IMG/VR virus record: IMGVR_UViG_3300014499_000021
Coordinates: 1 to 29,985 of that record
Length of the DNA: 29,985 bases
From: a virus
Strand: one strand, 5' to 3'
Of the stretch, positions 1,274 to 28,972 are shown one piece after another. The notes beneath the pieces are model-generated. The model saw only the letters and a list, made by a program, of their open reading frames with translations, was not told the DNA's origin and searched no databases. Within the stretch, counting starts at the first letter, position 1; the number at the start of each line of letters is the position of its first letter. Made by a program: the position numbers and the translations under genes.

Positions 1274-1480
1274 ATGATGAAAGAGATCCCCGACAGCATA
1301 GAACTTGAGCAGGCTCTGCGCCACGCGGCCGTCACGTTCCACCCGGACAGCATTAGCTTTGACAAGCGCACCGGCTCCGCCAAGGTCCGCGTCAATGGCG
1401 CCTACACTGCCGACGGACTCCGCGCCCTGGCTGCGGAGATGGACTATCTGGCCGCCGCCATCGAAGTGGTGACCCGGTGA
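1274..1480 (+). CDS. Unknown small phage protein (68 aa), coupled to the recombinase
   Basis: Two adjacent ATGs occur at 1274 and 1277; 1274 is chosen because GGAG at 1264-1267 is then six bases away. The protein is acidic, with a central beta-hairpin-like stretch ([19 protein letters not shown]) followed by a helix rich in Ala and Leu that could dimerise. No domain is recognised. The stop overlaps the GTG of the serine recombinase (GTGA), so the two products are probably made together. A small partner or regulator of the recombinase is possible from position alone. Confidence 0.6.
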
Positions 1481-2025
1481 AGACCGCCATCGCCTACACC
1501 CGGGTCTCCACCGCCGAGCAGGGGCGCTCCGGGCTCGGCCTGGAGGCCCAGCGGGCCGCCATCGCGGCGTTCGCGGAGAGGGAAGGGATAGCCGTCCAGG
1601 CGTGGCACGCTGACGTACAGTCCGGGAAGCGGGTGTCGGACACCCTGACGGAGCGCCCCGGGCTCAGCGCCGCCCTGGCGGCCTCCCAGGCGGCCGGGGT
1701 GCCTGTCCTGGTATCGAAACTGGACCGCCTGTCCAGGGATGTGCACTTCATCTCGGGGCTGATGGCCCACAAGGTGCCGTTCCTGGTGGCCGAGCTGGGC
1801 GCGGACGTGGACCCCTTTATGCTGCACCTCTTCGCCGCCCTGGCCGAGAAAGAGCGCGCGATGATATCGCAGCGCACAAAAGCCGCCCTGGCCGCCCTCA
1901 AGGCCCGGGGCGTCAAGCTGGGGCCGAAGCGACCGAACCCGACCGCCGGCAACGAAGCGAACCGGCGGAAGTGGGCGGCGTACCGGGCGCAGAAAGCTGT
2001 TGACGGCGCCCGGGCGCAGGCGTAG
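1477..2025 (+). CDS. Serine recombinase (resolvase/invertase catalytic domain), short form
   Basis: A 182-residue protein with a full serine-recombinase catalytic domain. The N-terminal YTRVSTAEQ carries Arg9 and the nucleophile Ser11, KLDRLSRD at 81-88 carries the conserved Asp/Arg cluster, and [15 protein letters not shown] at 124-138 is the start of the long E helix. Members of this family cut and rejoin DNA at paired sites. After the E helix the protein has only about 35 residues, GPKRPNP followed by a basic, Ala-rich tail, and I see no classical helix-turn-helix like that of gamma-delta resolvase. It may therefore bind DNA poorly, use a partner, or use the basic tail. The start is GTG, overlapping the previous stop. 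A candidate promoter for the next gene lies in its last codons. Confidence 0.9.
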
Positions 2026-10095: not shown

Positions 10096-11260
10096 GTGGG
10101 CATCATTCCAACATCTGAAGGTGGTCCAGATAACCGGGACATTGAACGAGCGATTAGAGATTTTGAAGAGACCGACGGCCGATATCTACGTGATAAACTA
10201 CGAGCTAGTGCCGTGGCTTATCTCACTTTGGCCGCCGGAGAGGTGGCCGTTCCGTATTGTGATAGCGGACGAGTGCAGCCGCCTCAAGGGGTTTCGCCTC
10301 AACAAGGGGACTGTGAGAGCGACAGCCTTAGCGAGTATCGCGCAATTCACCGGGCGCTGGTGGAATCTTACTGGAACGCCCTCTCCGAACGGCTTACAAG
10401 ATCTCTGGGGACAACTTTGGTTTATCGATTTTGGACAGAGACTGAAGCGGACATACACGGCATTCTCCGAAGCGTACCTCATGGAAGACAGATACACGAA
10501 AAAGATTTCTTTGCAGCACGGGGCAGAAGCGGCGATACATGAGGCGGTCAAAGACGTGCTAGTAGCGTACCGCGCCGAAGACTGGCTAGACATCACGAAG
10601 CCGCAGGAGCTGGCGGTCGAGTTCGAGCTGCCGCCAGCGGTCCGCGCGCAGTACAAGCGCATGGAAAAAGAGTTTTTCCTCGAAGTTGACGACGCGGCAA
10701 TCACCGCCGGTACCGCGATGGTCAAGTCCACAAAGCTGCTGCAGATCGGCGCCGGATCAATCATAGACACCGATACAGGAGAGACACATGCGTTACATGA
10801 CGCCCGGCTGGAAGCGCTCGACGACGTTCTGGAGCAGATTGAACCTGCGCCTCTACTGGTTAGTTACTGGTGGAAAAGCGATCCGGCCCGCATCCTGGCG
10901 CATCTGGCTCGCAAGAAAATTCTGGCGCGGGTATACCAGGGGAAGCAGGATGAACAAGACTGGAACGCGCGCAAGTTCCGGGTGCTCCTCCTCCAGGAGC
11001 AGAGCGCGTTCGGGCTGAACCTGCACGGACCCTGCCGCGACATTCTGCATTACAGCTACACCTGGAGCGCGGAGCTGTGGCAGCAGATGGTGGAGCGTGT
11101 CGGCCCAGCGCGGCAGGCCCAGGCTGGTAAAAAGGCGGCGGTTCGTGTATGGTATGCCGTAGCGAAAGGTACTGTCGACCAGGACGTGGTCGACAGCAAT
11201 TTTCAGAAGATAACCGTTGAGCAGGCGTTGAAGCGCGCCCGCGCGAGGAGCAGACAGTGA
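9851..11260 (+). CDS. SNF2-like superfamily 2 helicase
   Basis: A 469-residue ATP-dependent DNA translocase. FSPRDYQ (13-19) is the Q-motif region, ADPGLGKT (36-43) is Walker A, LVLAPKRV is motif Ia, IADECSRLK with Asp140 and Glu141 is the DExx box, and LTGTPSPN (173-180) is motif III. The C-terminal half contains LLLQEQSAFGLNL followed by a WQQMVERVGPARQ segment in the place of motif VI and AKGTVDQDV near the end. It probably unwinds or remodels DNA with the VRR-NUC nuclease and polymerase. The ATG lies inside the VRR-NUC frame; its binding site (GGTAGG) is moderate. The stop overlaps the next GTG. Confidence 0.92.
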   Translation: MNTSNSSLILPPFSPRDYQSEASIFLVDHPRAMLVADPGLGKTGTSLLALDLLKLIGSNFFPALVLAPKRVADVVWAGEKDKWASFQHLKVVQITGTLNERLEILKRPTADIYVINYELVPWLISLWPPERWPFRIVIADECSRLKGFRLNKGTVRATALASIAQFTGRWWNLTGTPSPNGLQDLWGQLWFIDFGQRLKRTYTAFSEAYLMEDRYTKKISLQHGAEAAIHEAVKDVLVAYRAEDWLDITKPQELAVEFELPPAVRAQYKRMEKEFFLEVDDAAITAGTAMVKSTKLLQIGAGSIIDTDTGETHALHDARLEALDDVLEQIEPAPLLVSYWWKSDPARILAHLARKKILARVYQGKQDEQDWNARKFRVLLLQEQSAFGLNLHGPCRDILHYSYTWSAELWQQMVERVGPARQAQAGKKAAVRVWYAVAKGTVDQDVVDSNFQKITVEQALKRARARSRQ

Positions 11261-12918
11261 GAACTACAGAGCTGAAACCCAAGTGCCCGAAGTGTGGGCG
11301 CGTGATGATTCACGGGAAAGATACGCGCGGCAAGCACCGCTGGGTGTGTCGCGAAAGTAGCGGAGATCGTAAGACATGTTACTCAACCGTAGGAGACCCG
11401 ACCGTGGTGAAGAAACAGGACGGTTCAACGAAGCGCGCGGGGCCGCCGCCGAAGTTTAAGCGACCGCTCGACTCGAAGATTTTCGTCGTCACGGCCGCGC
11501 AGAACGCGACGCCGCTACACGATACGTTTTGGGCGTCGCTCCTGCAGTATTGCGAGTTCCGCGGCGCCGAGCTGCTGGTGCTCCCGATCCGGTACAAGAA
11601 CGCGACCTCGCGCTGGACCGCGAGCCAGGCGAACGAGGAGTGGTGGCTCGACCGTCCGGCGGCGCCGTATAGTATTGAAACGCACGCTCCAGAGACGCCT
11701 GACGCGTACTACAATCGAGTCTACCCGAACCGGAAATACCTGTGGAACGTGCGCCGCGACCTGAACAAGAACATCACGGTGCTAGGCGACATCAAGGTGC
11801 AGCCGACCGCGGCGAGCCCGCTGACCGGCTTCGAGGGCATCACGCACGGCGAGTCTGGCATCCTGGGCCACACGAAGTTGCAGCTCAAGGTGGTCGCGAC
11901 GCCGCAGGGCAAGTACCCGAAGATCCTGACGACGACGGGCGCCTGCACGGTGAAGAACTACACCGACTCGCGCGCCGGCAAGCTGGGCGAGTTCCATCAC
12001 ACGCTCGCGGCGGTGGTGGTCGAGGTCGACGGCCCGCGCTTCCATCTGCGGCAGATCAACGCCTCGAAGGATGGGACGTTCTATGACCTTGACTACTTCT
12101 ACGACGGCTCGAAGCGCAAGCCTGTGCAGTGCAGCGGCGTGCCCGCGCTCGTCATGGGCGACACGCACGTCGAGGGTATCGACCCGGCGGTGGAGAAGGC
12201 GACGTTCGGTGACATGATCCCGTTTTTCCGGCCGAAGAAGCTTTTCTGGCACGACCTGGAGGATGGCGGTAGCGTCAACCACTGGGCGCAACAGAACCCG
12301 TTCGTGTCCGGCGCCCGCTACTTTGCGCAGCAGGGCTCGGCCAGCGAGGAGTTCTACAGCGCGCTCGCGTTTGTCAGCGAGAACACGCCGCTCGACACCG
12401 AGTCGTACATCGTGGCCTCGAACCACAACGACTGGCTGCACCGCTGGATCCTGGAGCGCGACTGGAAGACGCTGTCACCCCGCGACCGAGGCTTCTACCT
12501 CAAGGTGGCGAGCAAGCTGTATGAACAGTCAAAGCTACTCACGGGCGACGATGCTGAGAAGCTGAACGCTTTCATCATGCTCGCTAAAGAGCACTTCGCC
12601 AACGTTCCAAACATCAAGGTGCTCGACTACGAAGAGAGCGCCGTCGTGGAGGGTATCGAATGTGGCATGCACGGACACTATGGGCCGAACGGCTCGCGGG
12701 GATCGGCGCGCAACATGCGCCGGATCGGTGTGAAGAGTATCATCGGGCACTCGCACACGCCCGCCATCGAGGAGGGGTGCTACCAGGTTGGTACATCCAC
12801 CAAGCTGTCGCGGGGCTACACGCACGGCCCAAGTTCCTGGCTGAACACGCACTGCTTGATATACCCCAACGGCAAGCGTACACTGATCAACATCATCGAC
12901 GGAAAATGGAGGTTGTGA
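11257..12918 (+). CDS. Zinc-ribbon plus calcineurin-like metallophosphoesterase (A1-like) protein
   Basis: A 553-residue protein. Cys10, Cys13, Cys31 and Cys41 suggest an N-terminal zinc ribbon. Residues 70-115 contain FVVTAAQNATPLHDTFWASL and LLVLPIRYKN, typical of large phage proteins of unknown role. The second half carries metallophosphoesterase motifs in the right order: VMGDTH (299-304), ASNHND (387-392), MHGHYG (471-476) and IIGHSHTP (495-502). These would bind two metals and cut phosphoesters. Length and motif order recall the T5 pre-early A1 protein, linked to host DNA degradation and second-step DNA transfer; this relation is inference. A DNase or phosphatase role next to the helicase is plausible. 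The start is GTG at 11257. Confidence 0.75.
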   Translation: MRTTELKPKCPKCGRVMIHGKDTRGKHRWVCRESSGDRKTCYSTVGDPTVVKKQDGSTKRAGPPPKFKRPLDSKIFVVTAAQNATPLHDTFWASLLQYCEFRGAELLVLPIRYKNATSRWTASQANEEWWLDRPAAPYSIETHAPETPDAYYNRVYPNRKYLWNVRRDLNKNITVLGDIKVQPTAASPLTGFEGITHGESGILGHTKLQLKVVATPQGKYPKILTTTGACTVKNYTDSRAGKLGEFHHTLAAVVVEVDGPRFHLRQINASKDGTFYDLDYFYDGSKRKPVQCSGVPALVMGDTHVEGIDPAVEKATFGDMIPFFRPKKLFWHDLEDGGSVNHWAQQNPFVSGARYFAQQGSASEEFYSALAFVSENTPLDTESYIVASNHNDWLHRWILERDWKTLSPRDRGFYLKVASKLYEQSKLLTGDDAEKLNAFIMLAKEHFANVPNIKVLDYEESAVVEGIECGMHGHYGPNGSRGSARNMRRIGVKSIIGHSHTPAIEEGCYQVGTSTKLSRGYTHGPSSWLNTHCLIYPNGKRTLINIIDGKWRL

Positions 12919-18078: not shown

Positions 18079-18699
18079 TTACAGCCAGAGCGGAAGGTAG
18101 TACGTAGCGCCGTCGCACGTTATCGGTAGCCATTTCGTCGGTGCTGTAGTCGCGGAGCCCGGCTTGTTGGTCGCTGTGAACGTAGCGGTCTGCGCTCCCG
18201 CGACGACGGTGGAGTTCGCAATCAGCGCGGGCGCCCCTGCGCCAGAACCTACGAGTTCGAGCGCGGTGCCGCCGGCACGGGCGGGCACCGTCAGTGTGAT
18301 GCCAGCCCCTCCGGGGACGGGCGCCGACAACGTCATCTCGCCCTGCGCGTTGAGCACTATCTGGCCGTTGCCGGTGACCGGCATCGCTGGAACGTACGGG
18401 TCCACATCCTCGATCAGGCTCCAGGTCGAGTTATAGAGCTGCACGCGATAGACCGTCTCTGGGTTCAGGTAGATCGGCGGCATCGCGCCGGTACCGTCAG
18501 CTTGGACCACGGAGTAGAGCGCCGACGAGCCGTTCAGAGCGGCGGCAGGGAACGGTAGCGTGAGCCCCGCGTCCTGGTACACCTGCGCCGGGTTCGTCGT
18601 GCCAGAGACGTAGAAGTTGTAGTACGCGCCGGGCATAGAGACGCCCAGCGACGAGAGCGGTCGCGCGACCGGATCGTAAAACAGTTGACCTGTTGCCAT
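18079..18699 (-). CDS. Fibre N-domain paralog without distal part (206 aa)
   Basis: This protein matches the first 205 residues of the 817-residue fibre along its whole length: NPAQVYQDAGLTLPFP, PPIYLN, VDPYVP, GEMTLSAP and ATFTATNKPG, ending WLPITCDGATYYLPLWL. It stops almost exactly where the shared domain ends in the longer fibre. It could be an adaptor or collar protein that fixes the fibre to the virion, or a duplicated fibre that lost its receptor-binding part. The ribosome binding site AGGAAGA lies in the end of the large virion protein gene; one base separates its stop from the fibre start. Confidence 0.75.
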   Translation of the reverse strand: MATGQLFYDPVARPLSSLGVSMPGAYYNFYVSGTTNPAQVYQDAGLTLPFPAAALNGSSALYSVVQADGTGAMPPIYLNPETVYRVQLYNSTWSLIEDVDPYVPAMPVTGNGQIVLNAQGEMTLSAPVPGGAGITLTVPARAGGTALELVGSGAGAPALIANSTVVAGAQTATFTATNKPGSATTAPTKWLPITCDGATYYLPLWL

Positions 18700-18702
18700 T
18701 TA

Positions 18703-21700
18703 TCAGTCTTCCTTTGGTGCGCTCTTGCCTGACGCTCGTCGTTCCTGTCGCAGCGCTTCTAGGCGCTCGGCCGCTGAAATGAGGTGAGGTCGGAGAGCTT
18801 CTTGAGCAGCCTGGCGCGCTTGGCTTGTACCGGCTGTGTTGGTGCTTTGCTCTTTCCCTGGAGCCACCCGTTCAGCATCTCCTGCAAACCTGCTTGATTG
18901 GAGGAGCCCGCGGTGTTGCTCGGTGCTAAAGAGCTGGTGGAAGTCTGGGGTGCTGCGGATGAGGTCATCGGTGATATCTCCGTTCTTAACTAACTCAGGA
19001 ATCGTGCGGTCGCCCTTCTCTTCGGCATGTTCGTACGCGGTCTTCGCCCAGGACCATACGGTCTCTTGCACTTCGGCCGGCGTCCACGTCTCACCCGTCA
19101 TGCGCGAGAGCAGGCTCGCCGCCGCGCGCACCTTGCCCGAGAGTGCGAGGTAGGTCGCCGACTTGCCGGGGCCGCTCTGGTTGAGTCCGCCGCCGAGTTT
19201 CGCCGGGTCGATCTTGGCGAACGACGCCATCCAGGCATCGTTCGTCACTTCGTTGACGTTGTCGGTGAGGTTGTTGTAGAAGCTGTGTACTTTCGGGCCG
19301 GACAGCTTGACGTTCGACGGATCATCAGCGGTCAACGCGCGGACGCCGTTGTTCACCCACGCATCGAGCACGTTCGAGCGGTCCGTGTTCTTCGCGCTCT
19401 TCTGCGAACTTTCTTCCATGATCCGACGGATGTCCGACGGATCGGTGGGCCGCCCTTCCTTATCCCAGTTGACATAGGTCTTGAGCGCGTTCGCGAAGTT
19501 AGTCTGTACACTCACCTGGGGTGACATGGCAGAGAGGAGGGCGGCGAAGCGGGGCGCCTCGTGCCCGAACGTGTTCACGATGGCCTGCGCGCTCTGTTTG
19601 TACCATCCACGCTTAGCTGCACCGGCAAGCGCCGCCGCTGCGTACTCCTCAGTGGCGGGCGTCCCGTGAAACGCCTCGACCACTCGCTTCGTAGTATCTG
19701 CTCGCAGCTGATCGCGTTCGCTGTCTGTCAGCTGGTTCGTGACATGGCGCTCGTCGGCACCGACGCCCTCCTCAGCGGACTTCACGACCTTGGGCGGCAG
19801 GAGGCCGGCCTTCTGGTCCGCATAGATCGTGTCGGCTCCCGAGGCGCCTTTGTTCTGCGCACCCGCAGGGCCTGAGTTCACCCAGGAGTTTTGACCCAGG
19901 GTTTCAGCGTCCATTGCACCACGAGCTGCTGGCGAATACATCTGTCGATGAGCGCGCCAGGCGTTATACTCACCGTTTGCGCGGAAACCGTTACCCTCGG
20001 CGGCATGTCCGTAGTAGTCATGTACGGCCCGGAATAGATCGTTGTACGTTGCATCCTTTCCCCCCATCTGGACCGGCGCCTTCTCCATCAGTGGGTGATC
20101 GGACGGCGCGGCATCTCCCGATCCGAAGCCCGCTTCGGTCGGATAGATGCTCATGTGATTGTTCGCGCGCACGTCTTCGTGCATCTCGCGCGGGTTCGTG
20201 TACGGGTAATCCTTGTTGAGGTCCACCTTCACGCCCGCCTTCTGCATCTGCTTGTACTGCGCTAGGGTCTCGGCCTTGAACGCGGCATAGGACTTCGCGA
20301 CCTTCGGGTCGGTCGGGTCGTGCTTCATCGCATCGTAGGCATCGGCCACGTTCTTCGCCACCTTAGGGTCGATGTAGCGATAGTCTTTGAGCGCTGGCGT
20401 GTCGATGCCGGCGGACTTCTTGTACGCAGCGGCCGCGGCGCGCGCTTTGCCGTTCGGCTTGTCGCCTTCCGGCGCACCTTCGAGCGGTTTTTCACCGTCC
20501 GACTCGGTCGCCGTCGTACCGTCGTGGTTGCGGAAATAATCCTTATTGAACTTGTCCCACCCCTGCTCTTTCGCAGTCTGCTCGTGGCCCGGCGCGACGT
20601 GCATCTCGTCCCCGGTCGGCGTGCGTTGAGGAATCGCAGACTGTTTCGTCTTCGCAAGCACTTGCTGCATCTCGGGCGCGGACAGCGGGCGGTTAGTGTC
20701 GGCCACGACCGTAGGCTCGTACACGCCGTGCTTCTCCGGCGTAAGCACAGACGCCTTCGTGACCTTAGCTCCGGTAGATTCGACAGCTCCCGTCGCTTCC
20801 TGTTTGCTCATCTGGCGAAAGCCGGGCTCACCTTTGTTACCCTGGTTCAGGCCGATGTTGAGCGTGCCGCCGCGCTGCTTGTTACGGCTGCCGGCAGTTG
20901 ATTGCTTTCCCACGTCACCCGCGGCGCCTGTCTGACCGGAGAGCCGCCCCAGGATGCGCTTCTGCTCATCTGACAACTGCCGGCCGCCGGCCAGCTGGTC
21001 GTTTGCGTTGTACTCCGAGCGCGGGTTGCGCTCGACACCGAACGATCCGCCGCGCTGCTTGTTGCGAGACGCTGCGGTGGCGTTGTTTAGCGGATTGTCG
21101 TTCTGAAACGAGAACGAACCGCGCTGGCCGGGCGGCACGTTGATGCGCTGACCAGGCGCTATGCTGTTGGGGCGCGGGCGCACCTCGAAGACGTGATCGC
21201 CGACCGCGTGGTAGGCACCTCCGCGGTGGTCGGCGTCTTTCTTCGTTACGTCGTACCCGAGCTTCTTCAGGTTGGAGTACGCGCCGGCCTGGCTGTCAGA
21301 GACCTGCTTGTCGCTACGCCATGTCTGACCAGCGGCGTGAGTATCATCGACCGCGCGCTGTAGCATGCGGGTACCCCAGCCCTTGCCCCGCTCGTCCTTC
21401 GGGATGAAGGACATGTTCGGTTGGCGTACACCCAGCTCGGGGCGCTCAACTACATCCATCCCACCTTCTTTGCCAGGTGTCCGGTATGTGTGGTAGGTCT
21501 GCCCGTCGCTGCGCTTCTCTGACTCGTGGGTGATCGCGTCGCGCTGGCTTAGGTCACCGACCGCGCCCCGCTGCTTGCCACCACCGACACGCGCGCCGAG
21601 CGGTTGACCGCCGGGCGCTGGCGGGTTCATCGGCTTCCCGGAACCTACCCGGTTACCGTTGCGGTCGATCAGACGCTCCTTTACCGCGCTATCGCTAGCG

Positions 21701-24285
21701 GCCTGTTCCATTTTGCCGGACGCCTTCTCGACCCCGTGCTCGATAGCTCGCCCGATGTAGCGGCCGACCACAGGCACCTCGTGCGCGAGGCTGGCGGTGA
21801 TGTTCCCGCCAGTGGTGAGCGCATTAACCCCGAAGCCTGTACGCTGTTTCTGCGCCTCGGAACCCGGGTAGTGCTTGTCCATGTGCAGCGTGTTGCCGGC
21901 GTCGTTGATCGTCTGTAGATTCTTGAGTATGTCGGGACGTTCCTTGAACAGCTCAGGAGCGTTACGCGCGTACTGGTTCGCGGAGTTATAAAATTTTCGC
22001 GCGTTCCAGCTGCCGTCCGCGTCCGTAGCGGCGGCGTGTGCGCGGCTGGCAACGTGCGCCTGCAGTTCGCGTATGGCGGCGGCGCTTGCGTCCGCAAGTC
22101 CACCATCCCCTAAGTGCGCGCCTGCCCGCAAGACGTTCATCACATGCTGATGTTGTTCGGTCGGTAGGTCCGATATGTAATCCGCCACCTTGTGTGTCGG
22201 TATGGCGTGATTGATGCCCTGGCTGTCCGACGGCGTCAGGAGTTTCTTTATGCCGGTAGGATTTTCGAGCATCTGCGCCTGATGCGTACGCATGTCGCGC
22301 GCTTTTTGAAATAGTCCGGGTCCGCCCTGCTCGGACACGTCGGTGTCGACGTGGTCCTTCAGCTGCTTGACGACATGCGCGTTATCGAGCGTGCGGTTCG
22401 CGTTCAGCCATTCACGGAACTTTTCAGCGGCCGCGACACTGCCCGGCCCGGCGCCGCTGTTCGGCGTGCCATCACCGTTGTCGCCCACCGTCTTCAGCTG
22501 CTGCAGGCGCGCCTGTGCGGAGCGCCGGAAGCTGTCGGGCATATAGTTCGCGTCGTCTTTCAGGAAGCTATCTGCGCGGTTCAGGAACTGCGGCATCGGC
22601 TGTGTGCCGTGCGCGGCGCGTGCCGCATCATAAAGGCCGTCGGTCGCCTTTCCGAACCAGTCCTGTATGCCTTGGATGGCGTTCCGTATCACGCGTCCAC
22701 GATTGTCTAGCGTGGTGCTGTCGACACTATCACCAAACTCTGAGCCGATGCTCTGATGCACGTTCGCGGCAGCTTTGTGGAGCGCGTCGTTCTCGCTCGC
22801 GATCTGCTGGCGCATGGGCGCGCTACCGACTTCCTTAGCTTGGTAATCATCCCCCGTGGCGTTGTAGTCGCCATTCAGGGCAGATTCCCGGCGCGTGGGC
22901 AGCGCACCATTGGAAAGTTTGTCGACGGCGTCAAGATGCGCGGCGCGCTGCTGTTGCTGTTCCGGCGACGGCGTCGCTTGCGGACCCTCTTTGGCCGGCT
23001 CGTTGAACAGCTTTTGGGCTGCCGCCGGAGGCGCCGGCCTGGCAGGCGGTGCCGGGGCTGAGGGTTGGGTCGCCGTCGGCTCGGGCGGCGTAGCGCGGCT
23101 CGTAGACGCGCCGTTGGCCCGTCGCGCGGCGACACCTTCTCTGACGAGCGCTCGCTGCTCAGGTGACAGAGACATATCCAGCGGAGCGTCGTCGGCGGTC
23201 GGTAAAGTGACCCGGTTCGACTCATGCCCGAACGGCATCGTGCCGGCGCCGTTGGCGGCCGGAGCCGGCGACGGTGCCGGACCCTCCCCCGGCTGTCTGA
23301 TGCGTTCACCCATCCGAACAGGTGAAACGCCGTTGTCGTCGGCAGTGCCGTGTCGCTGCGCTTCCGCGTCCGCGGCGTCAACCAGACGCTTAAGACGCAC
23401 GCCCTCTGGAGAGTCCATCCGTACGGCACCCCCGGCCGCTTTCGCCTGCCAAGCCGCCAGCGCGTCCTGCGCTGGGGTCTGACTCGGAGGAGCGGCGGGA
23501 GATTCGCCCGCTTCGCTCATCGTGCGGTGGAGGGTGCCCTCCGGGTACGGAATCGGGTTCGGCTGGGCGCGTAAATCATCGCCCGTGAGTGGCGCGCCCA
23601 CATCCGGGGTGGGTGATACAGGTTTAGGGGCCGCCGGGCGGGGGGATAGCACGCGATGAGTGAGAGCGGCCGCCAGGTATCCCGTAGCGGCATCGGTGCC
23701 CGGGGCGAGACCGGCGCCCCCGACCGCCTGCTGCGCCACACCTGCGGCAGCTCCTGAGGCGACACTGCGTAATGCCCCAACAGTGCCACCCTCGCTGCCA
23801 ATGAGGGACGGGGCGGCCATCTCAGCTCCGGCATGCGCGTACCAGTTTAGGTTGGTAGGTTCCTGTACGTCCACCGAGCTGGCGCCCAAGTACTTACGCG
23901 CCTTCTCTTTGAACCATTCCGAGGAGCCTACGTCGGCTGACGTAGCAGGTTCAAGCGAGCTAGGTACGGGTTTGTCTGTAGACTGTCCAGGCTCCGGCAT
24001 CAATGCGACAGGGTTACCCTGGTCATCGACACCGTACTTGATGTTGCCGCCAACGGCAGATAACGTCCCCGCCGCGGCCTTCCCGAGTTCGAGCGCGTTG
24101 CGCGCAGTGTCGACCGGCAGGCCCGCGACATCCGCGATGCCCGCCTGTAGACCGCTCGCGCCGGCTTGCGTAAAGCCGCCCGCGGTCTGAGATGGCGCGT
24201 CTGTCGTATTACCAGACCACGCATCTTCCGCTGGCGGTGTCCAAACCGCATCGCTTGCCGGCGGAGACCAGGCTGCATCCGTCAT
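18703..24285 (-). CDS. Giant multidomain virion-type protein (1860 aa), probable ejected protein
   Basis: Residues 1-450 are Ala/Pro/Gly-rich and poorly ordered, with one Ala/Gly-rich helical stretch (about 165-205). Residues 450-870 are helical. Residues 945-1040 resemble a GNAT acetyltransferase: SFIPKDERGKGWGTRMLQRA, SDKQVSDSQAGAYSNLKKLGYDV. Linkers carrying KQRG occur at about 904, 1076 and 1136. Residues 1410-1475 contain a domain common in large phage proteins (DLFRAVHDYYGHAAEGNGF, NAWRAHRQMYSPAAR, GQNSWVN). Residues 1525-1800 contain another (WYKQSAQAIVNTFG, LLSAMSPQVSVQTNFANAL). Its position after two ejection-type proteins suggests it is packaged and injected. No lytic transglycosylase motif is seen. 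Its start overlaps the previous stop (TAATG). Confidence 0.7.
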   Translation of the reverse strand: MTDAAWSPPASDAVWTPPAEDAWSGNTTDAPSQTAGGFTQAGASGLQAGIADVAGLPVDTARNALELGKAAAGTLSAVGGNIKYGVDDQGNPVALMPEPGQSTDKPVPSSLEPATSADVGSSEWFKEKARKYLGASSVDVQEPTNLNWYAHAGAEMAAPSLIGSEGGTVGALRSVASGAAAGVAQQAVGGAGLAPGTDAATGYLAAALTHRVLSPRPAAPKPVSPTPDVGAPLTGDDLRAQPNPIPYPEGTLHRTMSEAGESPAAPPSQTPAQDALAAWQAKAAGGAVRMDSPEGVRLKRLVDAADAEAQRHGTADDNGVSPVRMGERIRQPGEGPAPSPAPAANGAGTMPFGHESNRVTLPTADDAPLDMSLSPEQRALVREGVAARRANGASTSRATPPEPTATQPSAPAPPARPAPPAAAQKLFNEPAKEGPQATPSPEQQQQRAAHLDAVDKLSNGALPTRRESALNGDYNATGDDYQAKEVGSAPMRQQIASENDALHKAAANVHQSIGSEFGDSVDSTTLDNRGRVIRNAIQGIQDWFGKATDGLYDAARAAHGTQPMPQFLNRADSFLKDDANYMPDSFRRSAQARLQQLKTVGDNGDGTPNSGAGPGSVAAAEKFREWLNANRTLDNAHVVKQLKDHVDTDVSEQGGPGLFQKARDMRTHQAQMLENPTGIKKLLTPSDSQGINHAIPTHKVADYISDLPTEQHQHVMNVLRAGAHLGDGGLADASAAAIRELQAHVASRAHAAATDADGSWNARKFYNSANQYARNAPELFKERPDILKNLQTINDAGNTLHMDKHYPGSEAQKQRTGFGVNALTTGGNITASLAHEVPVVGRYIGRAIEHGVEKASGKMEQAASDSAVKERLIDRNGNRVGSGKPMNPPAPGGQPLGARVGGGKQRGAVGDLSQRDAITHESEKRSDGQTYHTYRTPGKEGGMDVVERPELGVRQPNMSFIPKDERGKGWGTRMLQRAVDDTHAAGQTWRSDKQVSDSQAGAYSNLKKLGYDVTKKDADHRGGAYHAVGDHVFEVRPRPNSIAPGQRINVPPGQRGSFSFQNDNPLNNATAASRNKQRGGSFGVERNPRSEYNANDQLAGGRQLSDEQKRILGRLSGQTGAAGDVGKQSTAGSRNKQRGGTLNIGLNQGNKGEPGFRQMSKQEATGAVESTGAKVTKASVLTPEKHGVYEPTVVADTNRPLSAPEMQQVLAKTKQSAIPQRTPTGDEMHVAPGHEQTAKEQGWDKFNKDYFRNHDGTTATESDGEKPLEGAPEGDKPNGKARAAAAAYKKSAGIDTPALKDYRYIDPKVAKNVADAYDAMKHDPTDPKVAKSYAAFKAETLAQYKQMQKAGVKVDLNKDYPYTNPREMHEDVRANNHMSIYPTEAGFGSGDAAPSDHPLMEKAPVQMGGKDATYNDLFRAVHDYYGHAAEGNGFRANGEYNAWRAHRQMYSPAARGAMDAETLGQNSWVNSGPAGAQNKGASGADTIYADQKAGLLPPKVVKSAEEGVGADERHVTNQLTDSERDQLRADTTKRVVEAFHGTPATEEYAAAALAGAAKRGWYKQSAQAIVNTFGHEAPRFAALLSAMSPQVSVQTNFANALKTYVNWDKEGRPTDPSDIRRIMEESSQKSAKNTDRSNVLDAWVNNGVRALTADDPSNVKLSGPKVHSFYNNLTDNVNEVTNDAWMASFAKIDPAKLGGGLNQSGPGKSATYLALSGKVRAAASLLSRMTGETWTPAEVQETVWSWAKTAYEHAEEKGDRTIPELVKNGDITDDLIRSTPDFHQLFSTEQHRGLLQSSRFAGDAERVAPGKEQSTNTAGTSQARQAAQEALRPHLISAAERLEALRQERRASGKSAPKED
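20866..21585 (-). repeat. KQRG-type linker repeats in the giant protein
   Basis: GGGKQRGAVG, SRNKQRGGSFGV and SRNKQRGGTLNI occur at residues about 901, 1073 and 1133, with a partial form (PGQRGSF) at 1053. The DNA CCGCGCTGCTTGTT is repeated at two of the sites. They lie between or beside domain boundaries and look like spacer or processing sequences. Confidence 0.6.
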
Positions 24286-26213
24286 TATTGACCGCCTTTC
24301 TTGTGTGGTTTCCCGTTAGCGTCCGTGTACGCTGCGCCTTTAGGTAATGCATCGTATTGCGCCTGCGATGTGATGGTTGGTACGCCTCCGCCTCCACTCT
24401 GTCCTGGGCGCGCGGGCTGAGTCGCTTCCTCCATCGGGAAGTGCGTCTGGTTCCACGTTGGGAACTGGTTCGCATCCTTCCGCGCGGCCAGGTACGCCGG
24501 CACGCGCTTCGCAGAGTCCAGGCTGTACTGCGCCGTTTTCACGCCGCGCGATATCATATCACGTAACGCGGTCGGGTCCATACCCGGGGACGGGTTCAGG
24601 TCGTGTAGGATAGCGTCCGACTCTTTCTCCGTCATCTGCGAGAAGATGCCCTTGCCGGATTGCAGCGCGGCGTTGCCGAGGTACTTCGCGACCTCCTGGT
24701 AGTCGCCGGCCATGTGGTTCTGCCAGCCGGCGGGGAGCCACTTCGAGTACTTCGCCAGCTCCTGGTTCCAGGCGCCGCCGTCGTAGTTACCCTTCGCGAG
24801 CGTATCCTGCGCTGCCTTGTACATCGTGAGCGCGGCGGAGGCGGCGCCGACGCCTTGACTAGACGTACTTGCCAAAGAGTTCCGGGCGTCGGTCTGTTTT
24901 TTCATGTCGTCCATCACGGGCGGCGGCGGCGTGTGGCCGATCTGCGCCGTGTACGGCTGCCCGTTGAGCGACGGCTTGTAGTCGAAGTCAGGATCGTGCA
25001 GCGCGTCGGTCAGCTTCGGGTCGATGTTGCCTTGCGCGTTGCGCGCGGTGCCGACGCCGTTCTGCGCTTTCGGCGTGCCGCTCGGGTTCGTCGCTGGGGC
25101 GGCCGCGTGGTTGGCGTTCGCAGTATCGATTGCGGACTGTGCCGTCGCCCGCGCCTCTTGCGCGTGCGCGCCGTTCTGGTTCTGCGCCGCGCCGCCATCG
25201 GCGCCCGGGAGCTTGCGCATCTGCGCCTGTACCATCACCCAGTCGCCGGGACCGTTCATGTTCTTGGCGCCACCCATCTGCGCGGCCTTCCAGGGCGCGA
25301 CCTTGATCGTGCCGCCGCTGCCGTCGGGCATATCGACCGAGGGTGTGATCGCTTCGTGCGCCAGCTTGATGTACTGATCTTTCGATAAGCCCACCTGGTC
25401 GACGCCGGGGATCGGAATACCTGTCGCCTCGTCACGGTAGACACCCGCATCATCCTTCACAGCCTTTCGGTCCGTGTACTGGTGGACCACCCCGGCGGCG
25501 TGCGCCGCGAAGAGGCGCGCCTGATCTTCTTCGTCCCGCTCCTCGTTGGGGTCGTTCGCAAACTGTTTCTTGAGTGCGGCCACAACCTCGGGGTGCGAGG
25601 CTTGGAGCACGTTCATCGCTTGCCCGTCGGGCGCGTTGGTCACCGCGGAGAGCGCGTCGAAGTCGTCGCGCGAGCTTTGCTGAACCTGGGCAACGCGCTG
25701 TGCTTTCCACATGTCGATGCGCGTCTGCACACTCTTCGGCCCCATACCGTACTGGTCGGTGGGGTCCACCGCGTACGCATCGTTGATCGCCTTCAGCGCG
25801 CCGGGCGGCACCGGAGGTATGTAGTATTGGCTGCGGAAAGCTTTATCGATGGCGCCAGGGTCTAGGATAGAGCTGTCCGCGGAACCAGAGCGGTCACGCG
25901 CTTGAGAAAGTTCCTCGGGCTCGCTGGCCGGACCTGCGCCGGACGGTGCGCTGCCTGAGCCGCCCACGCCAGACTGATCGCTCATGCCGGACGACATGTC
26001 GTGCAGCCGCGCAAGGATCATAGGCATGCGCGCCGCCATCAGCTTGTTCTGCATGGCCTGCGCCTGCGCGGTCTGCTGCACGTTCTGCGTCTGCGCGCCG
26101 GCCAGGTTCGTCTGCGCGCCGGTAAGCTGCTGGTTCGCGACCGCGGTCGGGCCGAAGTTCTGGGAGATGTTGCCTGCGATATCTTGGGCGGAATCTGCTG
26201 CGATGTCACTCAT
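24285..26213 (-). CDS. Internal virion / DNA ejection-type protein (642 aa)
   Basis: Gln/Ala-rich N-terminal helix (VANQQLTGAQTNLAGAQTQ, then QQTAQAQAMQNKLMAARM), then a region with PPGALKAINDAYAVDPTDQYG. A basic/acidic middle has DEEDQARLFAAHAAGVVHQYT. A Gln/Asn/Ala-rich linker at about 320-400 is followed by a C-terminal helical domain (AALTMYKAAQDTLAKGNYDGGAWN, YLGNAALQSGKGIFSQMTEKESDAI). No catalytic motif is visible. Size, composition and place between another such protein and the 1860-residue protein resemble podovirus ejection proteins (P22 gp7/gp20/gp16 type organisation). The function is inferred from that arrangement. Confidence 0.6.
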   Translation of the reverse strand: MSDIAADSAQDIAGNISQNFGPTAVANQQLTGAQTNLAGAQTQNVQQTAQAQAMQNKLMAARMPMILARLHDMSSGMSDQSGVGGSGSAPSGAGPASEPEELSQARDRSGSADSSILDPGAIDKAFRSQYYIPPVPPGALKAINDAYAVDPTDQYGMGPKSVQTRIDMWKAQRVAQVQQSSRDDFDALSAVTNAPDGQAMNVLQASHPEVVAALKKQFANDPNEERDEEDQARLFAAHAAGVVHQYTDRKAVKDDAGVYRDEATGIPIPGVDQVGLSKDQYIKLAHEAITPSVDMPDGSGGTIKVAPWKAAQMGGAKNMNGPGDWVMVQAQMRKLPGADGGAAQNQNGAHAQEARATAQSAIDTANANHAAAPATNPSGTPKAQNGVGTARNAQGNIDPKLTDALHDPDFDYKPSLNGQPYTAQIGHTPPPPVMDDMKKQTDARNSLASTSSQGVGAASAALTMYKAAQDTLAKGNYDGGAWNQELAKYSKWLPAGWQNHMAGDYQEVAKYLGNAALQSGKGIFSQMTEKESDAILHDLNPSPGMDPTALRDMISRGVKTAQYSLDSAKRVPAYLAARKDANQFPTWNQTHFPMEEATQPARPGQSGGGGVPTITSQAQYDALPKGAAYTDANGKPHKKGGQ

Positions 26214-28043
26214 TTAAAACCCCAGGTAGCTGGTCGCATTGCTCGCGGCGCCGCTGCCGTAATCGAGGCTGCCGCCGACAGTGCTCATATCGGTGCCAAA
26301 GTTCATCCCGGCGGACGGATCTGTCAACCCGCTGGAATCGAACGTCGGAGTGGTGATAGCCTCGCTGCCCCACGACTGCCCGGTACTAGGATCTATGCCC
26401 GTGTCGCCGACGTTGTTCTGGTTGTACGCATCGATTGCGTTCTGATTGTTGGCAAGAGGCGTACCAGAGAACGGGTCAGCGGCGTTGCTCGCCACGGTGC
26501 CGCCACCTTGCGGCACGCCGCTGCTGTTGACGCCGCTGCTACCGAGCGCCTTGCCGGCGGCGTTGATCAGGCTGGTACCCGCGCCGTTGGCGCCAAAGAG
26601 GCTGCCCGTCGCGTCGGCCGTGCCGAGGTACCCGCCAGCCTGCGCCTTACCGATGTTACCCTGCAGCGTGCTGATGTTGTTGCCGGCATTGATATTGGCG
26701 CCTTGCAAGTTCGTGTTCGCCGTCGTGCCGAGGCCGGCCGCGCCCATCAGCTGACTTATGTACGTGTTGTAGTCTTGCATGGCGGTGCCGGTCACGTACT
26801 GACCTACAGCGGCTGCCGTGTTTGGAGTGTACGCGCTGCCCATCGCAGCGGCCTGGCGTTGGATGGCTTGCGTCCCTTGCTGCGTGGCGAACGCGTAGCC
26901 TGGCATGTTCTCGAAGCCGGAGTAGTTCGCGGGCTGCCCGTTCGTGCCGAGCGCGGAACCGAGCGAGGTATCGGCGCCTTGCCCCAGCTTCTGCTGCGTG
27001 CCCCAGATGTTGTTGATGTTGCCGAGCGTGTTCTGCTGCGTGGTGATTGCGTTGCCGTACGCGTTCGTTTCAGCGTTCGCGGCAGCCAGCGAGCCGGCGG
27101 TACCGATCCCCGCTTGCAACACGCCGGGCAGTGCGCCCGTGATGGTCGAAGCGAGACTTGAATCTGTGCTTGTCATACTGCCGTTGTTCCCTTGTCCAGT
27201 GGCGCCCGCGCCTAGATAGCTTGCCCCGCCGCCCAGCGCGAGACCGCCTAAAATACCTGCCCCGCCGCTCGTGCCGACGCTTGAACCCGGCGTAGCGATG
27301 GTGCTCATGGGGTTCGGCCCCATCTGCGTTGCGCCACTCGTTAGCGCACCGCCGTTCGACACGCCGCTGTTCGACGTGCCCGTGTTTGTCACACCGCTCG
27401 TAGAGCCTGATAAGGCGTTACCGAGCGCGTTCATGCCCAGGCTGGAGGCGCCTTTAACCAGCGCGTTGGAGACTCCCTGATTGAGCCCGGTCGCGCTGCT
27501 CAAATCCCCAGACAGCGTGCCGGCTTCAGACGCCAACCCCGCGCCAGCGCCGCCCAGCACGGCGGACTTAGCTAAACCGCCAGCCGTGATGTTGTTGCCT
27601 TGCAGGCCGTTCGTAACTACGTTGCTAGCCACGCCGCCGGCTGCACCGCCGGCTATCGCGCCCGTCAGGCCGCCGATGGCGGCGGAAGCGGCGCCACCTG
27701 TCAGGACTCCAGCGGCGGCGCCTAGCACCATCGGGCCATACGACTGCAGGGCGTCGCCAAACTTCGTGTTCATGCCCTGAATAGCGTTGTACTGCCGCTC
27801 GACGTAGTTCGATTGCTGCTGTGGCGTCATCGCCATCAGAGCGGCATGAATGTTGGCGTTCGGGTCGCCGAACTGCTGAAAGTCCGGCGACGTTGGTTTG
27901 TCCTGCGCGGCATTGTACGCCGACACTACGGACGCGCCATCCCCCTTGATGGCGCTGTATCCCCAATCACCGTTATACCCGTTTTGTAGGTCGGCTACGC
28001 CGTACGGAGTCGACGCGTTCCCGCCTCCGACAGTCATTCGCAT
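26214..28043 (-). CDS. DNA ejection / internal virion-type protein (609 aa)
   Basis: Gly/Ala/Ser/Asn-rich protein. Residues 100-160 contain two hydrophobic Gly/Ala stretches (MVLGAAAGVLTGGAASAAIGG; GAIAGGAAGGVASNVV) able to insert in membranes. Around 370-440 a conserved-looking pattern occurs, NMPGYAFATQQGTQAIQRQ, AMGSAYTPNTAAAVGQY, DYNTYISQLMGAAGLG, as in phage DNA-transfer proteins with a Pro-x-Tyr-x-Phe ... long-helix signature. It likely forms part of the channel through which the genome crosses the envelope. Start ATG 28043 with GGAAAG eight bases upstream; it directly abuts the holin stop. Confidence 0.65.
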   Translation of the reverse strand: MRMTVGGGNASTPYGVADLQNGYNGDWGYSAIKGDGASVVSAYNAAQDKPTSPDFQQFGDPNANIHAALMAMTPQQQSNYVERQYNAIQGMNTKFGDALQSYGPMVLGAAAGVLTGGAASAAIGGLTGAIAGGAAGGVASNVVTNGLQGNNITAGGLAKSAVLGGAGAGLASEAGTLSGDLSSATGLNQGVSNALVKGASSLGMNALGNALSGSTSGVTNTGTSNSGVSNGGALTSGATQMGPNPMSTIATPGSSVGTSGGAGILGGLALGGGASYLGAGATGQGNNGSMTSTDSSLASTITGALPGVLQAGIGTAGSLAAANAETNAYGNAITTQQNTLGNINNIWGTQQKLGQGADTSLGSALGTNGQPANYSGFENMPGYAFATQQGTQAIQRQAAAMGSAYTPNTAAAVGQYVTGTAMQDYNTYISQLMGAAGLGTTANTNLQGANINAGNNISTLQGNIGKAQAGGYLGTADATGSLFGANGAGTSLINAAGKALGSSGVNSSGVPQGGGTVASNAADPFSGTPLANNQNAIDAYNQNNVGDTGIDPSTGQSWGSEAITTPTFDSSGLTDPSAGMNFGTDMSTVGGSLDYGSGAASNATSYLGF

Positions 28044-28475
28044 TTAGTGCTTTCCGACGACGCCCTGTATCTTCTCGACGGTGCGCGTGATGTGACCGAG
28101 CCCCAGCATGCCGGCGAGCGTCGACTGCAAGAGCGGATCATTCAGCGCGGGGAACTGGGTGGGGTGTCCGACCAGCGTGCTGACCCAAGTGAAGAGCGGG
28201 GCAATGATGCAGCTGATGGCGAGTCCGGTGCCGCACACCCAGCCGACGTACGGGCGCCAGCCGGCAACCCACCACGACGCGCTGGCAGCCTCGACCTTGT
28301 CGACATCGGACTGCGCGCTCGTCACGGACTGGAGCTGCAACATCTCTTCATCGAGCGCCCCTTTCAGCTGCAGCTCCTGCAGCTGCGCGACGGCGGCGGC
28401 GGCCGCAGCCTTGTCAGGTACGACCTTGTTGATGATCGCGATGATAGGTGCGGCGACGGTGTCCCAGATGCTCAT
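28044..28475 (-). CDS. Holin, 3-TM (GTA-holin type)
   Basis: A 143-residue protein. A hydrophobic N-terminus (VAAPIIAIINKVV) and a helical Ala/Gln/Glu segment (VAQLQELQLKGALDEEMLQL) are followed by SWWVAGWRPYVGWVCGTGLA, ISCIIAPLFTWVSTLV and a C-terminal LLQSTLAGMLGLGHITRTVEKIQG. The WRP followed by membrane segments and the GLG...R..EK ending match the 3-TM holin family used for cell release. The ATG at 28475 overlaps the lysozyme stop; a longer frame upstream is in the lysozyme gene and is discarded. With the lysozyme it forms the lysis cassette. Confidence 0.8.
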   Translation of the reverse strand: MSIWDTVAAPIIAIINKVVPDKAAAAAAVAQLQELQLKGALDEEMLQLQSVTSAQSDVDKVEAASASWWVAGWRPYVGWVCGTGLAISCIIAPLFTWVSTLVGHPTQFPALNDPLLQSTLAGMLGLGHITRTVEKIQGVVGKH

Positions 28476-28972
28476 GACGGGTATGCTCCGGTCAGAAAAT
28501 AATTCGCTATGCGCGTAGCGCGGCCCGGCTTGTCGAAGCCGTGCGGCTGCACTTCCTTCGCCCAGAGGCTGGCGAGCAGGTGATCGTGCACCGTCTGCCA
28601 CTCCTGCGCCTTGACGGCGGCGCGCGTCGGGCCGAACCCTTCCCACTTGCCGCCCATATTGAACGCGATCTCGGTGAGCGCGTTCTTACGACAGTCGGTG
28701 TCGCATGACGCGTACTCCGGCCAGCGAGATGCTAGCCGCATCGCGTTCAGGATGTCGGTGCAGAACCATCGGTCACTCGTCGATTGTGGGACGCTGAAGC
28801 CTTCCCACGACCGGCCTGGCGCCGGACGCGGCATCAGATGCCCGCGACCACACGTCCAATTGCCACGAGTATCGAGATAGGCCGTGAGTTCATCCCTCTC
28901 TGCAGCATCCAGATCAACTGCCAGACGCCTATCGATAGACGGATCGAGAACGGTCTCATTGGTTATTGCCAT
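28472..28972 (-). CDS. GH24 lysozyme (endolysin)
   Basis: A 166-residue T4-type lysozyme. AERDELTAYLDTRGNWTCGRGHL gives the catalytic triad Glu25, Asp34 and Thr40 with exactly the spacing of T4 lysozyme (9 and 6 residues). NALTEIAFNMGGKWEGF and a C-terminal PGRATRIANYFLTGAYP complete the fold. It cleaves the glycan chains of peptidoglycan. There is no signal peptide or anchor, so export depends on the holin encoded next. GAGGA precedes the ATG. It overlaps the anchored coiled-coil gene by 17 bases and the holin by four. Confidence 0.92.
   Translation of the reverse strand: MAITNETVLDPSIDRRLAVDLDAAERDELTAYLDTRGNWTCGRGHLMPRPAPGRSWEGFSVPQSTSDRWFCTDILNAMRLASRWPEYASCDTDCRKNALTEIAFNMGGKWEGFGPTRAAVKAQEWQTVHDHLLASLWAKEVQPHGFDKPGRATRIANYFLTGAYPS

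Follow-up and report, generated by a model that had tools for sequence, protein, structure and literature searches.

A giant phage protein in the third slot of an ejection triad, with C-terminal enzyme-like modules

What phages deliver with their DNA, and why, is largely unknown. The stretch of virus DNA analysed here, 29,985 nucleotides of the IMG/VR record IMGVR_UViG_3300014499_000021 (the window), encodes a protein of 1860 residues, P0001, and raises the question of whether this protein enters the cell with the phage genome and what its modules would do there. The 1860-residue multidomain open reading frame lies exactly at 18703-24285 on the minus strand, and the observation of such a protein in the initial annotation is confirmed as a whole. 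The gene starts with an ATG that overlaps the stop codon of the upstream gene (TAATG). Relatives cover P0001 at 58-99% identity, and the pN/pS of every module is 0.04-0.47. Because of this coverage and these ratios, P0001 is considered a real gene under selection; decaying pseudo-domains are ruled out by the pN/pS values.

P0001 belongs to a minus-strand block that is composed, in the order of transcription, of the holin, P0005, P0004, P0001, P0003, P0002, and P0007. The features of this block that bear on the question are as follows.

28044 to 28646, minus strand: holin, first in the block
26214 to 28043, minus strand: P0005, 609 residues, family match to phrog_598, 'DNA ejection'
24285 to 26213, minus strand: P0004, 642 residues, second ejection slot (the position of P22 gp20), by position; co-conserved with P0001
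18703 to 24285, minus strand: P0001, whole gene, 1860 residues, placed third in the ejection triad, enzyme-like modules at the C-terminus
18079 to 18699, minus strand: P0003, tail-fibre-like, located after the triad in relatives (gene order)

P0005 matches phrog_598 with an E-value of 5.5e-17, and P22 gp7 is in the same PHROG (E 2e-95). No family match was found for P0004. Thus, of the two ejection-type proteins described upstream of P0001, one is identified by family and the other by position only. The order of a gp7-like protein, a second protein, a large third protein, and a tail fibre is that of P22 7-20-16 and of T7 14-15-16-17, and it recurs in the relatives that were fetched. The trunk of P0001 (residues ~408-865) matches the third-slot protein of MW202520, a P22-like phage (tblastn and hhalign, prob 99, E 4.7e-19); the first slot of that phage is likewise occupied by a phrog_598 protein. 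A protein of MW202674 matches the trunk as well (profile E 3e-17), and the stretch from the trunk to residue 1257 is 56-81% identical in relatives. Profile comparison of P22 gp16 and gp20 and of T7 gp15 and gp16 with the trunk, P0004, and P0005 gave no match. Ejection proteins are known to diverge fast (PMC8954989). Because there is no match to P22 gp16 or T7 gp16, P0001 is assigned here to the third slot of a P22-type triad on account of its position, the family of its partner, and the shared trunk, and is not called a homologue of P22 gp16. On these grounds, its place in a P22/T7-type ejection triad appears well supported, and the gene context indicates that P0001 is probably packaged in the virion and injected with the phage DNA.

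Several other genes of the window were noted. P0003 and P0002 (15624-18699, minus strand) carry a related tail-fibre N-terminal region in tandem, an arrangement that is kept in relatives. P0007 (14953-15627, minus strand), a candidate peptidase downstream of P0001, has the JAMM motif HTHPAGEDRSTQFSDND, a match to DUF4329, and a sub-threshold match to Prok-JAB. Far from the triad, a protein of 553 residues (11257-12918, plus strand) matches phrog_1745, 'DNA transfer protein' (E 2e-138), and its gene adjoins a helicase gene. A match to DNA invertases and integrase-type recombinases (phrog_125) is located at 1477-2025, plus strand.

P0001 itself is composed of the following parts.

23089 to 24285, minus strand: variable N-terminus, residues 1-399, Pro/Ala/Gly/Ser-rich (composition; comparison with relatives)
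21607 to 23088, minus strand: helical trunk, residues 400-893 (predicted model; homology)
21565 to 21576, minus strand: KQRG junction motif, residues 904-907 (sequence)
21166 to 21555, minus strand: predicted GNAT fold, residues 911-1040, with the acetyl-CoA motif R-G-K-G-W-G at 966-971 (model; fold search)
21118 to 21129, minus strand: GQRG junction motif, residues 1053-1056 (sequence)
21049 to 21060, minus strand: KQRG junction motif, residues 1076-1079 (sequence)
20869 to 20880, minus strand: KQRG junction motif, residues 1136-1139 (sequence)
20515 to 20868, minus strand: small module, residues 1140-1257, TLN(I/V)GL..., with a low-confidence model; relatives conserve it at changed positions
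19768 to 20502, minus strand: domain A (phrog_3170), residues 1262-1506, predicted metal-binding enzyme (pLDDT mostly about 90 to 99)
19888 to 20034, minus strand: invariant core of domain A, FRAVHDYYGH (1418-1427), GEYNAWRAH (1438-1446), and AETLGQN (1460-1466) (alignment)
18934 to 19677, minus strand: domain B (DUF7178), residues 1537-1784, predicted HhH-GPD DNA-glycosylase fold with K1665/D1683 (Pfam; VIA)

The Pro/Ala/Gly/Ser-rich composition of the N-terminal ~400 residues fits a disordered region, and the N-terminus of two relatives (L004 and L005) differs from that of P0001. The helical parts proposed earlier correspond to the trunk, which is helical in the predicted model. The two further domains proposed behind the GNAT-like domain are also real: phrog_3170 matches at ~1278-1490, and DUF7178 at 1554-1745. 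P0001 therefore joins three unrelated enzyme-like domains: a GNAT fold, domain A, and an HhH-GPD fold.

The assignment of residues 911-1040 to the GNAT acetyltransferase fold is well supported, because the predicted model, Foldseek, VIA, and the RGKGWG motif agree. In the model of residues 400-1265, this domain has a pLDDT of 80-91, and its strands and helices follow the GNAT order. Foldseek ranks 49 enzymes that are GNAT-fold or GNAT-like ahead of all other rows, mostly with a probability of 1.00. The best 50 VIA rows are all GNAT-fold proteins (Z 8.8-10.3 over 90-123 residues), and the anti-CRISPR acetyltransferase AcrVA5 is among them (Z 8.9). RGKGWG (966-971) agrees with the acetyl-CoA motif R/Q-x-x-G-x-G/A. 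Several Pfam GNAT families match weakly (best E 0.0026), and the window copy is below every cut-off, a Pfam gathering cut-off being a library threshold and not a biochemical feature. The GNAT-like domain that had been read from the sequence is thus borne out by fold search. Gp113 of phage Alice, a solo GNAT noted by Iyer et al. (PMC5512222), was ruled out on comparison as a close relative of this domain.

Domain B is predicted to have the HhH-GPD DNA-glycosylase fold. Residues 1554-1745 score over the Pfam cut-off for DUF7178, a family for which the literature search found no papers. A VIA search with the model of residues 1255-1825 places DNA glycosylases in its first 16 rows (Z 6.2-10.5), and the unrelated rows below them reach 5.6. 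The best row is SsOgg (3fhg; Z 10.5, rmsd 3.2, 176 aligned), and MjOgg (3knt; Z 10.1) and endonuclease III (2abk; Z 7.3) are also found. Sequence comparison of domain B with the PDB gave no match, and the Foldseek E-values of the A+B model against the PDB were not significant. The fold call rests on the VIA Z of about 10 and on the spacing of a Lys/Asp pair. HhH-GPD DNA glycosylases possess a catalytic Asp, to which bifunctional members add a Lys. K1665 and D1683 are 18 residues apart, as are K120 and D138 of endonuclease III. Alignment A3 has the Asp in every sequence and the Lys in at least 90%. Members of this fold bind DNA and need not be glycosylases.

Domain A is widespread and highly constrained, yet unnamed in standard libraries (Pfam, NCBIfam). 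It was found in at least 571 IMG/VR stretches and in 38 loci of species genomes. Comparison with Pfam, with NCBIfam, and by sequence with the PDB gave no convincing match. Across 53-59 diverse sequences, 16-17 residues are invariant; the invariant core includes H1422, D1423, H1427, E1439, H1446, and E1461. The core, N-D-x-F-R-x-V-H-D-x-x-G-H-x3-G-x2-F-x3-G-E-x2-A-x3-H...E-T-x-G-Q-N, holds with few departures in actinophages, cyanophages, proteobacterial phages, and cellular copies. The pN/pS of domain A is 0.09-0.16, as compared to 0.21-0.40 for the trunk, and is below that of the trunk in every pair; still lower values were found for the 1140-1257 module in one pair and for domain B in another. 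Domain A is among the most constrained modules of P0001.

The signature of the aromatic amino acid hydroxylases is P-D-x-x-H-[DE]-x-x-G-H-x-P with a third Glu ligand. Domain A has an HDxxGH, reminiscent of the iron site of these enzymes, and a downstream invariant Glu, and the flanking Pro residues are absent. Comparison with the hydroxylase profile gave prob 10% and E 0.003, a little better than the 0.018 reached by the best of 26 unrelated decoys. No aromatic amino acid hydroxylase is among the best 50 Foldseek rows for the A+B model, for which the VIA list is filled by domain B. The hydroxylase assignment is thus a motif-level lead only.

Solo copies of domain A are found in actinobacterial genomes in two settings. 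In Micromonospora and Streptomyces (L110, L113, and L115), the gene belongs to a conserved cluster that also encodes an S-adenosylhomocysteine hydrolase, an MFS transporter, a class-V aminotransferase directly downstream of domain A, and a PLP enzyme of Cys/Met metabolism; two of the three clusters also have a homocysteine S-methyltransferase gene. These neighbours hint at small-molecule chemistry by domain A. In a second set, mostly Micromonosporaceae (L116, L117, L119, L121, L123-L127, and L129-L131), solo domain A adjoins a conserved divergent N-6 DNA methylase, and in many of these loci a UvrD-like helicase gene is nearby.

Domain A is often accompanied by domain B. B is present in 38 of 128 A-bearing loci (about 30%), in 33 as one open reading frame and in five as adjacent ones; because the flanks are limited, 38 is a lower bound, and a few of the loci overlap as copies of a single contig. 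The fused domains occur in either order. The split dyad is encoded by adjacent genes in mycobacteriophage Alice (gp98, B; gp99, A) and Gordonia phage Skog (165/166), and of the 204 phage records that Alice gp99 matches, 187 are from Mycobacterium phages. Gp205 of Rhodococcus phage E3, in which A and B are fused, is annotated as a 'structural protein'; the literature searched held no evidence for virion presence of E3 gp205 or of the cluster C homologues. That the pairing recurs, both fused and split, is the strongest indication of A working together with a partner that binds or acts on DNA.

Though relatives retain the trunk, the modules behind it are swapped, deleted, or reordered, mostly at [GK]QRG. 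The initial annotation described domains joined by KQRG linkers, which holds for KQRG at 904, 1076, and 1136 and for GQRG at 1053; no such motif lies between the last two domains. The joint, [x]QRG[S/A/G], is found behind the trunk and ahead of most modules, and in many relatives ahead of the trunk as well. QRG occurs 44 times in 11 members of the lineage, as compared to a shuffled mean of 4.6 and maximum of 12 (2000 trials), though these proteins are kin to each other and the counts are not independent. QRG was rejected as a general motif of polyvalent proteins, as 71 other domain-A giants show no excess of it (31 observed, 39.7 expected).

Five relatives (L135, L138, L139, L140, and L142) have the same GNAT as P0001 in different company. 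By-eye assignment places another GNAT-like module instead of this GNAT in L004 and L005, and a ParB-like module in L005 and L140. The C-terminal end of L004 and L139 is the A+B dyad, as in P0001, and relatives differ in the order in which the QRG linker block and the module 1140-1257 are arranged. Moreover, pS is unequal between modules of one pair (in L004, 0.64 for the trunk and 0.36 for B), and this unequal synonymous divergence fits separate module histories. Two proteins of the same trunk family (L144:523-5364 and L149:265-5385) have a diverged domain-A-like module in their C-terminal half (FRAWHDK.H...GFDHDGEL). Its similarity to domain A has modest support (prob 60%, E 8.5e-5), and their C-terminal module resembles domain B weakly (prob 10%).

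The reading that we favour, with moderate confidence, is that P0001 fills the third ejection slot in a short-tailed phage with a P22-type triad, and that its trunk delivers C-terminal enzyme modules, which act early and are swappable cargo jointed by QRG motifs. Its basis is the gene, the trunk homology, the triad order, the predicted folds, the conserved residues, selection, module shuffling, and the A-B pairing; from these we infer virion packaging, ejection, catalysis, the targets, and a purpose in counter-defence or host takeover. The helical trunk (400-893) would load P0001 into the head and help build the DNA conduit, and as a result the C-terminal modules would enter the cell with the genome and act before or during the first phage gene expression. 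The GNAT may acetylate a host (or phage) protein, altering or inactivating a host target. The A+B dyad would act on DNA: in the manner of HhH-GPD proteins, B may read or flip a base, and A may perform metal-dependent chemistry on that base, on a nucleotide, or on a linked small molecule. The [GK]QRG motifs would be the joints at which relatives exchange cargo. A broader proposal is that domain A represents a new metal-dependent enzyme family of phages and some actinobacteria, which acts on nucleobases with its DNA-glycosylase-fold partner and is injected or virion-linked as part of an ejection protein with interchangeable cargo. Taken as a whole, this proposal is tentative and rather doubtful.

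Other explanations begin from the same modules. The dyad could work late, on the phage's own DNA, in base modification or proofreading before packaging; its fusion to P0001 would then provide proximity to the genome, and injection would be incidental. This is in keeping with the predicted DNA-glycosylase fold of B, with the separate adjacent genes for A and B in the late region of Alice (gp98 and gp99), and with their location near tail and capsid genes in a prophage-like contig of Burkholderiaceae (L096). We nevertheless consider it unlikely, as a dyad that is fused to an ejection-triad trunk together with a GNAT and swappable modules suits delivered effectors better. The modules could also be parts of the conduit without catalysis, with B binding DNA and with A and the GNAT fold as scaffolding. 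Ejection proteins do build a DNA conduit (PMC8954989), and HhH-GPD folds bind DNA. However, conservation extends to the Lys/Asp pair in B, to the acetyl-CoA motif in the GNAT, and to the polar invariant core in A, and relatives that have kept the trunk have these modules absent or replaced; a purely structural role is decidedly improbable.

A further possibility modifies the favoured reading without replacing it. The [GK]QRG motifs may be protease sites at which the trunk and free enzymes are cut apart, either ahead of packaging or once inside the cell; P0007, which has a JAMM motif and weak JAB/DUF4329 matches, could be the peptidase. QRG follows the trunk, precedes most modules, and in many relatives also precedes the trunk, which would suit such cleavage; polyvalent proteins have been proposed by Iyer et al. 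to undergo processing (PMC5512222). A plain linker or a recombination seam accounts for the motif equally well, though, and other domain-A giants lack it, which makes cleavage improbable as well. With respect to delivery of a cargo by an ejection protein, the initial annotation, which had inferred packaging in the virion from the two proteins upstream and early action by delivered enzymes, is supported in part: the place in the ejection triad and the GNAT fold both stand.

This lineage is a natural experiment on delivery, in which the trunk is constant and the cargo varies. Domain A, which in Alice has domain B beside it, occurs in about 190 records of cultured phages that mostly infect M. smegmatis, and its role is therefore genetically testable now.

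Both themes that meet in P0001 have precedents. Iyer et al. described polyvalent proteins in 2017, among them GNATs encoded near late genes (PMC5512222). As far as the consulted passages of that work go, P0001 is similar in being a large late-region protein with unrelated enzyme domains, a GNAT among them, and in its proposed co-delivery with DNA; unlike those proteins, it has an ejection-triad trunk and modules bounded by a lineage-specific QRG motif. The same passages do not name domain A or DUF7178, and P0001 has no Pfam match to an LPD, MPTase, or ART domain. The analogy to polyvalent proteins made at the outset therefore holds for the multidomain design and the late-gene setting, but apart from the GNAT, which is placed at the superfamily level, no domain could be matched to the published list in these passages.

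The A-B dyad of P0001 is the same as that of Alice (gp99, gp98), Skog (166, 165), and E3 (gp205), where it is adjacent or fused. Unlike P0001, the loci read in these long-genome phages have no match to the ejection trunk. P22 gp7/gp20/gp16 and T7 gp14/gp15/gp16 share with this triad the gene order, the tail-fibre or spike genes that follow, and a third protein that is the largest, and P22 gp7 and P0005 share the first-protein family, phrog_598. P0001, at 1860 residues, is larger than P22 gp16 (609 residues) and T7 gp16 (1318 residues), and its trunk has no detectable profile similarity to them. The N4-type virion RNA polymerase (PMC12633501) is a giant ejected enzyme that acts directly after entry. 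P0001 is likewise a giant protein and probably ejected, but its enzyme-like domains are different and no polymerase domain was detected in it. A peptidoglycan hydrolase domain has been swapped between ejection proteins (reviewed in PMC8954989). Polyvalent proteins and ejection proteins are thus already known; the cassette-swapping, probable ejection protein and the A-B dyad are a new form of these, and P0001 joins both themes in one protein.
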